The notes under the pieces are model-generated. The model did not search any database and had not been told where the DNA came from. It saw only the letters and a list, made by a program, of their open reading frames with translations. The position numbers and the translations under genes were made by a program. DNA of 53,794 bases from Gemmatimonadaceae bacterium (GTDB taxonomy: Bacteria; Gemmatimonadota; Gemmatimonadetes; Gemmatimonadales; Gemmatimonadaceae): contig JALHNZ010000020.1 in the NCBI GenBank assembly GCA_022843265.1, positions 1 to 53,794 on the forward strand, in the 5' to 3' direction. Shown in pieces: positions 43,162 through 51,965 of the stretch (positions are counted from its first letter, which is position 1; each line of letters begins with the position of its first letter).

Positions 43162-43235
<74 letters not shown>

Positions 43236-43347: not shown

Positions 43348-43421
43348 GGCAGGGTAGCTCAGCTGGTTAGAGCACGGCACTCATAATGCCGGGGTCGCGG
43401 GTTCGAGTCCCGCCCCTGCTA
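43348..43421 (+). tRNA. tRNA-Met (CAU), elongator type
   Basis: A 74-base cloverleaf with acceptor GGCAGGG/CCCTGCT (G1-U72 wobble), D-arm AGCTCAGCTGGTTAGAGC, anticodon stem-loop CGGCA-CTCATAA-TGCCG, variable GGGGTC and T-arm GCGGG-TTCGAGT-CCCGC. The full acceptor pairing and the absence of GGG/CCC in the anticodon stem rule out an initiator. The GAGCAC...CACTCATAATG...GGGGTC pattern resembles elongator Met. A lysidine-modified tRNA-Ile(CAU) is the alternative. CCA is not encoded. Confidence 0.92.
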
Positions 43422-43447
43422 CTTGCGGTCAACACATGACACATCAC

Positions 43448-43574: not shown

Positions 43575-44351
43575 ATGATCCGACTGTTGTTCGCCTTGGT
43601 TTTCGTTGGCAGCGCGTCGCTCAGCGCGCAGGATGCACGAACTGTCATCCGCATCTTCGACAACTCGGCCAAGCCGGTTCCGTATGCGCTCGTCAACTTG
43701 CGAGACGGAGTCTCACGCGTGGCCGATGATTCGGGTCGAGTGGCCTTTAACGAACCGCCCAAAGACTCGCTTCGCATTCAGGTACGGCGCCTCGGATTTG
43801 ACCCGTTTTACGGTTGGGTGACGCGCGTTCCGGAAACCGGTGAATATCCCGTGCTGCTCCGCCTGTTGCCGCAGTCCATTCAATCGGTGCAGGTGACCGC
43901 GCGTGCGAACACGCCGCTTGGACGCTCCGGTTTTTACGATCGTGTGCAACGCGTGCAAGCGGGTGCGTACTCGGCGCGCATGATCACGCCGGAAGAACTG
44001 GATCAACGCAATCCCATTCGGCTCACGCAGATGCTGCAGGGCGAAAATGCCGTGCGCATTCAGCGTCTCGACCAGAATCGGTCCATGATTACCGGTCGCG
44101 GCGGCCAGTGTGGCTATTCGATTCTGCTCGACGGCAATCGTGTGACAGGCACGTACGAAGAGTTGTTGACGAACAAGACCAATCCGCCACCGGTGACCAG
44201 CTTGATTGGCGTTGACGAGTTCATCACGATCAACAGCGTGGCGGCCATTGAGATTTATTCGAGTGCCGCGTCAATTCCCGCGGAGTTGCAGCGTTCGCTC
44301 GGCGGCGGATCGTGTGGCTTGATTGCGATCTGGACGGGACGCCGTCGTTAA
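43575..44351 (+). CDS. Exported CarboxypepD-like plus TonB-plug-like protein, no barrel
   Basis: A 258-residue secreted protein. The signal peptide ends SASLSA with Gln 19. Residues about 22-95 form a carboxypeptidase-regulatory-like beta domain (VIRIFDNSAKPVPYALVNL, LRIQVRRLGFDPF). Residues about 100-258 resemble the plug domain of TonB-dependent receptors (VQVTARANTPLGRSGFYDR, MITPEELDQRNPIRLTQML, YSILLDGNRVTG, VAAIEIYSSAASIPAEL). No beta-barrel follows, and the stop is not a late frameshift: the next gene is convergent and unrelated. Two late Cys residues may form a disulfide. The role is unknown; a periplasmic or surface adaptor is possible. The ATG at 43575 gives the signal peptide. Confidence 0.78.
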   Translation: MIRLLFALVFVGSASLSAQDARTVIRIFDNSAKPVPYALVNLRDGVSRVADDSGRVAFNEPPKDSLRIQVRRLGFDPFYGWVTRVPETGEYPVLLRLLPQSIQSVQVTARANTPLGRSGFYDRVQRVQAGAYSARMITPEELDQRNPIRLTQMLQGENAVRIQRLDQNRSMITGRGGQCGYSILLDGNRVTGTYEELLTNKTNPPPVTSLIGVDEFITINSVAAIEIYSSAASIPAELQRSLGGGSCGLIAIWTGRRR

Positions 44352-49244: not shown

Positions 49245-50189
49245 ATGCACGTCCTTGCGAATCAGTCCGACCGCACTCTCGACCAGCGTGATTTGCTGGC
49301 CGTCGCGCGAGCGACTCTCGACGAACATTGGGCCGTCTCCGCGGTCCCGCAGGAGCGACGAACGCTGCTCCTCGAACGCGCCGACGAAGCCGCCGTCGCG
49401 GCCGGCGAGGGACTCGGGGAGCCCATCGCGGACGGCTTGGCGCTGCTCGGCACAGCCTACGAACTCGCCGCCCTCGGGCAGCTTGAAGCGGCCCTCGACA
49501 GCGCCCCGACCGCGAACCGGGACCTTGCCCGAGCCGTGTTGATTCTCGGGGCATCCCGCGCCTACCGCTGCGGTGCCGCGCTTCGCCCCCCCAGCGACGA
49601 CGGCGACGCCGCCCTCACCTGGGCCCTGCGACTCGGCGCGCTGGCCATGGTCAGCGGCCAGACGGATGTCTACGCCGACTGGTGGCAAAAACGCGAAGGC
49701 ATCGCGGCCGCCGTGGAGAGCTACGGCAAATCGCTCGACTCGCTGCCCTGGGAGCAGTACGCGCGAGGCACCCTCTGGTTGGCCTGGCTGGGGCTTCTGG
49801 GGGCCCCGCTGAGCGCTCCGATCCCGGAGGAGGGGGAAGTTGCACCGCGACCGCTGGTGGCCACCAGAACACGCCTGGCGGCCTTCCGTGAGCGTCGAGC
49901 TGCCCACGGCACCACCGGCGATGCACCCGTGCTCAGCACCGCCGCGCTGCGCGCGCGCATGGCGGAGTTCGCGATTCGCCACCTGGCGGACGCGACCGAG
50001 TTGCTCACGATCGCAGTGCTGCGTCGCACGCTCCCCGATGTGTCGTCGGAGTTCAAGCTGCGACTGAGCGCGGCGCGCTCGGCGATGGCCGGGGATCACG
50101 GGCAGGATGTGCTACTGGCGTGGTTGCAGGCAGCCGGCGTTACGCTGGCAGGCGGCGTGACCGCCCAGCTCGAACTCCCAGGATTCTAG
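49245..50189 (+). CDS. Hypothetical helical protein
   Basis: A 314-residue protein without recognised domains, signal peptide or membrane segments. It is helical, Ala/Leu/Glu/Arg-rich, with weak helical-repeat character (GLALLGTAYELAALGQLEAALD, LTWALRLGALAMVSGQTDVYADWW). Third codon positions are strongly G/C, which favours this strand over the long open frame antisense to it. ATG 49245 is preceded by a weak AGGGG. Its 3' end overlaps the convergent gene at 50140 by 50 bases. Confidence 0.6.
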   Translation: MHVLANQSDRTLDQRDLLAVARATLDEHWAVSAVPQERRTLLLERADEAAVAAGEGLGEPIADGLALLGTAYELAALGQLEAALDSAPTANRDLARAVLILGASRAYRCGAALRPPSDDGDAALTWALRLGALAMVSGQTDVYADWWQKREGIAAAVESYGKSLDSLPWEQYARGTLWLAWLGLLGAPLSAPIPEEGEVAPRPLVATRTRLAAFRERRAAHGTTGDAPVLSTAALRARMAEFAIRHLADATELLTIAVLRRTLPDVSSEFKLRLSAARSAMAGDHGQDVLLAWLQAAGVTLAGGVTAQLELPGF

Positions 50190-50535
50190 TCCGACCCAAC
50201 CGCTCGGCGCCCTTCACGCGCCACACGCGGAACACGGTGCGTCCGGCCGACCCCGCTGGAAAGGCGACGCCGCCACGGCGCTCGCCGCCGTCGGCGACCA
50301 TGCCAGCGACTCCGGCGCGCAGTGCCTGCGAGGCCATGTCCGCCTCCGCCCCCGACTCGATCCGGAACCAGCGGCTCGAACCCGCCACATCCTGAGCGCG
50401 CACGTAGTATGCGTCGTCTGCCGCCCAGAAGCCGGAGAGCTGTGCCGAGCTATCGTCGGTGGACGCGATCGGCAGCGAGGTCAGCGGCGCGGGTTCGATC
50501 GCACCAATCGGTGCGGCGCAGGGAATGACGTTCAT
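50140..50535 (-). CDS. Hypothetical protein
   Basis: A 131-residue protein not matched to any family. The central part (SGFWAADDAYYVRAQDV, SSRWFRIESGAEADMASQALRAGVAG, AGRTVFRVWRVKGAERLG) has a beta-rich look. Codon third positions are G/C-rich over its length. ATG 50535 (MNVIPCAAP) is preferred, because upstream in the same frame the sequence becomes the AT-richer DnaA-box region. No Shine-Dalgarno site is evident. Confidence 0.5.
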   Translation of the reverse strand: MNVIPCAAPIGAIEPAPLTSLPIASTDDSSAQLSGFWAADDAYYVRAQDVAGSSRWFRIESGAEADMASQALRAGVAGMVADGGERRGGVAFPAGSAGRTVFRVWRVKGAERLGRTRILGVRAGRSRRLPA

Positions 50536-50652
50536 GGGGAGTGGGCGACAGGATCGGAGAATCGTGATCGACACAGCGCGAGGCCGTGTGTCGGGCGAGC
50601 ATTGTACGACGATCCGATCGCACACGCAATACGAGGTGAATGTTGTAAGTTG

Positions 50653-50682
50653 TTGACATTGATGTGGATACGCGTTCATAAC
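50653..50682 (+). promoter_or_regulatory. Promoter embedded in DnaA-box cluster
   Basis: A perfect -35 TTGACA (50653-50658) and CATAAC (50677-50682) are 18 bases apart. One DnaA-box-like sequence (50663-50671) lies in the spacer and the perfect one (50685-50693) covers the expected start site. Transcription would run toward the ATP-grasp operon with a leader of about 290 bases. Confidence 0.5.
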
Positions 50683-50839
50683 GTTGTGGATAACTCGCCA
50701 AGTGTCACATTCCCAACGCGTCCACATGTTGTTTGTTGTGGAAAACACACCTTGTGATATCTGGTCATCGTCGGCGGCACGGGGGCAAGTTTTCCACACG
50801 CGGCGCAGTCACAAATCTTGTCTTTGCTGACAATCCACA
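50663..50839. other. DnaA-box cluster (candidate oriC or DnaA-regulated region)
   Basis: The 446-base gap 50536-50981 has six sequences like the DnaA box TTATCCACA within 177 bases. They are a perfect one on the minus strand (TGTGGATAA, 50685-50693); three with one mismatch (TGTGGATAC 50663-50671, TGTGGAAAA 50737-50745, TTTTCCACA 50790-50798); and two weaker (GCGTCCACA 50718-50726, CAATCCACA 50831-50839). Orientations are mixed. The local composition is AT-richer than the surrounding genes. The clustering is direct observation. Function as replication origin, titration site or DnaA-controlled promoter is inference. The usual oriC neighbours dnaA, dnaN and gyrB are not in the window. Confidence 0.6.
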
Positions 50840-50981: not shown

Positions 50982-51965
50982 ATGGTTGAACCGCGAATCG
51001 GCCTGATTGTCGGGCGCGAGTGGTCCTTTCCGCCCGCGTTCATCGATGCGATCAAGCAGCGCCGAGCCGGCGTTGTGGCTGAATACGCGTCGCTTGACGC
51101 GACAAAAATGGCGCAGCCGGTGCCTTACACGCTGCTCATCGACCGCATTTCGCACGAGGTGGGCTTCTACCGCACCTACCTCAAGCACGCGGCCATTCAG
51201 GGCGCCACGGTCATCAACAACCCGTTCATGTGGTCGGCCGACGACAAGTTCATCGACGCCACCCTCGCGGTGCGCCATGGCGTGGCCCATCCCAAAACAA
51301 TGGTGCTGCCCAACAAGGATTACATCCCGGGCATCTCTCACACGGAGTCGCTGCGCAACCTGGCCTATCCGCTGGACTGGCGCGGTGTGGCCGAACACAT
51401 CGGCTTTCCGTGCGTGCTCAAGGACGCCCACGGGGGCGGCTGGCGCGATGTGTACATCTGCCATTCCATGGAAGAGCTGATCCAGCACTACAATGGCAGC
51501 GGGCTGCTCACCATGATCGTGCAAGCCTTCGTGAAGTGGGAGCAGTACGTGCGGTGCATGGTGCTGGGACGCGAACATGTGCTCGTGATGCCGTACGATC
51601 CGCGCGAGCGAAAGTACATCACAGACGAAGGCTACCTGCCCAAGGCGCTGCACGATCGCATCGCGGCCGATGCACTCACGCTGTGCCGCGTGCTCGGCTA
51701 CGACATGAACACCGTCGAGTTTGCGGTGCAGGACGGCATACCGTACGCGATTGACTTCATGAATCCGGCGCCGGACATGGATATCAACTCGCTGACCCCG
51801 TCGTATTTCGAATGGGTGGTTGAACACATGGCGGATATGGCGATTCGTCTGGCGACGTTGCCTCACAACGCGGTGCGCCCCGAAACGGCAATCCCGCCGC
51901 TTGTGCAGGCTGATGCGTCAGCCGCGGCGACGGTGGTGCCTCTCGTGGCCCCAGCGAGCAAATGA
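50982..51965 (+). CDS. RimK-like ATP-grasp ligase
   Basis: A 327-residue ATP-grasp protein. An N-terminal pre-grasp domain (PRIGLIVGREWSFPPAFIDA) leads to VINNPFMWSADDKF, the glycine-rich nucleotide loop KDAHGGGWRDVY, a central EQYVRCMVLGREHVLVM and the metal-binding end VEFAVQDGIPYAIDFMNPAPDMD. Such enzymes activate a carboxylate as acyl-phosphate and join it to an amine (or thiol). The substrate is unknown. The start ATG is preceded by GGAG at 8 bases. The stop forms ATGA with the next gene, so expression is coupled to a second ATP-grasp protein. Confidence 0.85.
   Translation: MVEPRIGLIVGREWSFPPAFIDAIKQRRAGVVAEYASLDATKMAQPVPYTLLIDRISHEVGFYRTYLKHAAIQGATVINNPFMWSADDKFIDATLAVRHGVAHPKTMVLPNKDYIPGISHTESLRNLAYPLDWRGVAEHIGFPCVLKDAHGGGWRDVYICHSMEELIQHYNGSGLLTMIVQAFVKWEQYVRCMVLGREHVLVMPYDPRERKYITDEGYLPKALHDRIAADALTLCRVLGYDMNTVEFAVQDGIPYAIDFMNPAPDMDINSLTPSYFEWVVEHMADMAIRLATLPHNAVRPETAIPPLVQADASAAATVVPLVAPASK

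Follow-up and report, generated by a model that had tools for sequence, protein, structure and literature searches.

An array of DnaA boxes in the 53,794-nucleotide stretch of DNA analysed here (the window, contig 20 of a 211-contig Gemmatimonadaceae draft genome, G000) is real and conserved within the family, and stands at a near-constant distance from a predicted promoter that points away from it and towards a linked gene encoding 131 amino acids (Table 1). We favour gene regulation as the role of this array because it is constantly paired with a promoter; judged from sequence, the evidence leans modestly toward DnaA regulating the small-gene promoter through the array, which would act as an upstream control region. 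A sequence-only reading of the same stretch had proposed a replication origin away from dnaA, or a DnaA titration region. The conserved array of consensus DnaA boxes beneath that proposal stands, but the unlinked origin does not.

Table 1. Features of the array region, in window coordinates.
Feature	Coordinates	Strand	Remarks
Converging ORF, 345 aa	49152..50189	+	runs toward the small gene; neighbour in most genera
Small gene, 131 aa, downstream of the predicted promoter	50140..50535	-	aligned in 24 genomes
Predicted -10 element TACAAT, 17 bp from the -35	50601..50606	-	read from sequence
Predicted -35 element TTGCGT, promoter facing the small gene	50624..50629	-	position of TTG shared by 8 genera
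DnaA-box array, whole conserved element	50645..50835	+	model R1, 108.6 bits; the window's own array is among the 24 training sequences of this sequence-only model
Conserved motif TCAACAACTTAG (window version TCAACAACTTAC), between promoter and box 1	50645..50656	-	
DnaA box 1, GTATCCACA, one mismatch	50663..50671	-	conserved form across the alignment is NTATCNACA
DnaA box 2, TTATCCACA, perfect	50685..50693	-	mismatch scan and 24-genome alignment
Conserved word (T/C)AAGT, past box 2	50698..50703	+	24-genome alignment
DnaA box 3, TTTTCCACA, one mismatch	50737..50745	-	mismatch scan and 24-genome alignment
Conserved word GTGAT, past box 3	50754..50758	+	24-genome alignment
DnaA box 4, TTTTCCACA, one mismatch	50790..50798	+	TTNTCCACA invariant in 24/24 genomes
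Conserved word TCACAAA, past box 4	50809..50815	+	24-genome alignment
Weak box CAATCCACA, two mismatches	50831..50839	+	unconserved in the alignment
ATP-grasp-like gene, weak RimK-family match	50982..51965	+	on the array's other side; neighbour only in g1 and g30

Six DnaA-box-like sites had been counted in the array. One perfect box and three with a single mismatch were recovered as described, but the fifth site has two mismatches, and a sixth was not found in the array at two or fewer mismatches. The four stronger boxes (at most one mismatch) fall within 136 bp, where the simulated maximum was two (300 windows, trinucleotide content kept), and to this extent the cluster does exceed chance, as had been supposed. 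The description of its surroundings also held: the array is AT-richer than the window (49.8% versus 62.9% G+C) and sits in a 446-bp gap between divergent genes, the 131-aa ORF, which had gone unnamed, and an ATP-grasp-like gene. Box starts are separated by 22, 52 and 53 bp, arithmetically about 2, 5 and 5 helical turns at 10.5 bp per turn.

The same cluster, when sought in related genomes, was present. Its gap-free alignment spans 24 genomes and 207 columns, 43 of them invariant. Because the aligned sequences were picked by matching box spacing, that spacing in part reflects how they were chosen; the intervening words played no part in the choice, and those that proved invariant or nearly so are TCAACAACTTAG (minus strand), AAGT, GTGAT and TCACAAA. 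A search with the sequence-only model detected the complete array in g1, the genus of the window, and in g30; in six further genera (g3, g4, g17, g22, g28 and g34) it detected the first half, with per-genome E values of 1e-8 to 7e-4. Weaker hits in g44 and g48 (E about 0.005-0.01) were treated as chance.

Placement of the predicted promoter follows the array closely. A TTG-bearing -35-like element lies 12-16 bp past the TCAACAACTTAG motif, and a -10-like hexamer comes 17 bp further on in nearly all sequences. This promoter-like pair, TTG-N17-(TA-rich), was seen in g1, g30, g22, g28, g3 and g4/g34, with looser spacing in g17; the -10 element varies by genus (TACAAT, TAACAT in g30, TAGGTT, TACCCT), and some versions are poor matches. 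The boxes keep a conserved spacing to the promoter, itself called from sequence, and about 190 bp separate the outermost box from the predicted start site.

The small gene is found just downstream of the predicted promoter in six of the eight genera (g1, g30, g22, g28, g3 and g17), and its homologues in the 24 genomes are 46-75% identical to the window copy. In the other two genera, g4 (three genomes) and g34 (one genome), the array core and the promoter-like sequence are kept and the small gene was not detected. One genome, G021, has two copies of the gene, about 6 kb apart; the second (L365, G021:C37:52582-52785) is diverged, and the region upstream of it preserves a degenerate form of the same layout: a TTATCTACA box, GTAACAACTTGG, then TATTGCGC. 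A homologue in G028 is preceded by diverged box-like sequences only. Within the searches made, the gene is known only in this family; the protein found no NCBIfam match, and its predicted fold (a poor model, mean pLDDT 60) had no PDB match at E <= 0.001.

The ATP-grasp-like gene on the array's other side is conserved together with the 131-aa ORF in g1 and g30. In g3, g4, g17, g22, g28 and g34, the array lies next to the small gene, the converging ORF or both, and the ATP-grasp gene is not adjacent. As it is no neighbour outside g1 and g30, this gene is not what anchors the array. A role for the array in controlling the ATP-grasp gene is likewise weakened, since other genera have the gene without the array, and the array, too, is found without the gene.

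Were DnaA to control the small gene, a sigma-70-type promoter would read from the array into it (50535-50140, minus strand), with DnaA occupying the four boxes at the spacings given above. As these spacings are near whole helical turns, the bound DnaA molecules would lie on roughly the same face of the DNA. A second protein may recognise TCAACAACTTAG, AAGT, GTGAT and TCACAAA and assemble with DnaA upstream of the -35 element, and the resulting complex would tune transcription by the amount or the nucleotide state of DnaA. We infer DnaA as the binder, the role of the second protein and the transcriptional response, whose sign might be up or down. Supporting such control are the array's conservation without gaps across 24 genomes, the promoter-like pair 12-16 bp from TCAACAACTTAG across genera, and the small gene downstream in six genera together with the degenerate layout at the second G021 copy. 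DnaA of the window's genome retains the box-reading signature PRQ...GGRDHSTV, and the gap between dnaA and rpmH in that genome holds one perfect TTATCCACA; both lend further support. Against promoter control stand g4 and g34, which keep the array core and promoter-like sequence with the small gene undetected, and the distance of about 190 bp from the outermost box to the predicted start, which is long for simple control. A DnaA-box-like cluster at dif, described below, also counts against it, as it lies between converging genes, where a promoter is not expected.

DnaA-box clusters outside oriC and next to promoters are already known. Bacillus subtilis has conserved clusters of this kind, often beside promoters; the array is like them in being conserved, away from the origin and next to a predicted promoter, and unlike them in its sequence layout and neighbours. 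In E. coli, mioC has five boxes in or near its promoter (PMC4585315), and a Caulobacter study describes DnaA as doubling as a transcription regulator (PMC3193534). The array shares with the E. coli mioC and dnaA promoters the presence of several DnaA boxes, strong and weak, beside a predicted sigma-70-type promoter. Unlike in those promoters, its boxes precede the -35 element, near whole turns over about 130 bp, and do not overlie the promoter, and extra invariant words accompany them. The array's layout, its small gene and its occurrence in this lineage are, as far as we searched, undescribed; a search of open-licence papers on Gemmatimonas DnaA and oriC returned no description of the array.

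Because the contigs of the window's genome cannot be ordered, the chromosomal position of its array was taken from relatives. Three single-contig genomes of one genus (G034, of 4,636,964 bp, G059 and G106) carry the same array. We computed GC skew in G034 from 20-kb samples amounting to about 36% of the genome, with the origin and terminus zones covered in full; the cumulative curve has its minimum at dnaA (0-50 kb) and its maximum at 1.926-1.936 Mb. The E. coli-type dif pattern gave no match at three mismatches, and a dif-like site at 1,930,289 was located by reading the sequence at the skew maximum. The array, at 1,630,514, lies 300 kb before this site, and the corresponding distances are 302 kb in G059 and 401 kb in G106. 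These positions are 84, 86 and 82% along the dnaA-to-dif arm (G034, G059 and G106, respectively), an agreement that gene-order conservation would give likewise.

Positional agreement of this kind bears on the main rival to promoter control, a putative non-coding DnaA-control site of the datA/DARS or titration type. Such a site would bind or remodel DnaA away from the origin; its copy number would set initiation timing, and the promoter and small gene would be companions. We regard this as a tentative possibility. Members of the datA/DARS class need IHF or Fis sites for their activity, and they promote either the release of ADP from DnaA or the hydrolysis of its ATP. The array is like E. coli datA, DARS1 and DARS2 in being intergenic, multi-box and off oriC, with boxes in several orientations and, here, conserved words between them, and its relative position is similar among the three single-contig genomes, just as the E. 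coli sites keep their relative distance from oriC (PMC4585315). However, three related genomes are few, and gene-order conservation alone could fix the position. Survival of the array in g4 and g34, where the small gene was not detected, and the sibling cluster in the convergent gap at dif, would also suit a non-coding site, whereas the near-constant promoter spacing in eight genera and the degenerate copy upstream of the second small gene are unexpected for a free-standing one. The array further differs from the E. coli sites in its coupling to a predicted promoter and gene, and no tightly packed core of three boxes, as in DARS, was recognised in it. Promoter control and a datA/DARS-type or titration function could both be true.

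The cluster at dif was present in all 12 genomes tested, from both genera tested (loci L304-L315; G000:C141:432-453 in the window's own genome). Within about 7 bp of dif comes GTGGATAA(C/G)TGTGG..AA, with TCAC and TCCACAT further downstream. The genes flanking this gap both point inward, and one of them, recognised by eye from sequence, is dapF-like. The array has GTGGATAA, TCAC and TCCACA in common with the dif-side cluster, a likeness of short words only, because the array model gives no detection there. These shared words, the terminus-side location of the array in the three relatives, and the weaker boxes of the probable oriC itself might suggest that another protein reads the cluster, for example a terminus-organising factor with a DnaA-box-like site. 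We consider this doubtful, as the sites hold to TTNTCCACA while leaving the third base free, which is what DnaA boxes should do, and four genomes have a perfect box upstream of dnaA. Rather unlikely, too, is a two-site terminus-side DnaA system that combines the promoter-linked array with a DnaA-box-like cluster fused to dif; if it did exist, the two sites together would let DnaA signal to a small family-specific regulator that replication has passed or ended.

An unlinked or secondary chromosomal origin at the array is highly improbable. Like an oriC with boxes and trios, the array has several boxes clustered in A+T-richer intergenic DNA, but it is far from dnaA, off the skew minimum and free of DnaA-trios: the longest run after any tested box was two, where we looked for at least three within 16 bp. 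The sequence-only reading would have placed the skew minimum at the array; in the relative G034 it falls at dnaA instead, with the array 1.63 Mb away, 300 kb short of both dif and the skew maximum. For G059 and G106, the origin argument rests on the positions of dnaA and dif. A basal unwinding system consists of a DnaA box followed by DnaA-trios (PMC8287927), and it is the dnaA-dnaN gap that matches this layout. In G000, G034, G059 and G106, the gap contains a degenerate box (AAG[TC]CCACA), a 4-bp spacer, 3-6 DnaA-trios and then A+T-rich sequence; the module in the window's genome (G000:C12, about 43650-43977; L255) includes an A+T-rich inverted repeat. Three trios in a row have a probability of 11% per random site (0.5% for at least five), so it is the recurrence in four genomes at a spacer of 4 that carries weight. 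The dnaA-dnaN gap is likely to be oriC in these four Gemmatimonadaceae genomes, and skew, dif position and DnaA-trios together are the grounds for rejecting the array as an unlinked origin.

Chance assembly of the cluster has a negligible probability: the window's overall box total is indeed unremarkable (seven sites with at most one mismatch against about 3.7 expected, a number reached in 10 of 100 shuffles), but the simulations of 136-bp density and above all the conservation of the array in 24 aligned genomes, with its core in eight genera, already refute it.

Taken as a candidate for control by DnaA, the small gene offers a concrete, putatively DnaA-linked gene in a phylum where the cell cycle has received very little study. 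The same analysis yields a conserved dif site and, for four Gemmatimonadaceae genomes, a likely oriC. It also urges caution, since strong boxes occur far from the origin and the boxes of the probable oriC are weak, so that a box cluster alone is no mark of an origin.

Elsewhere in the window's genome, a 652-aa protein carrying a tandem pair of Bac_DnaA ATPase domains (L257:11709-13667, G000:C83) adjoins an MglA-like GTPase; in relatives, the tandem protein is encoded 62-107 kb from the array. Three DnaA boxes, one of them perfect, lie within a short-chain dehydrogenase gene (L003:1293-1376, G000:C21). The window itself also carries two successive tRNA-Met genes (43162-43235 and 43348-43422), about 110 bp apart.
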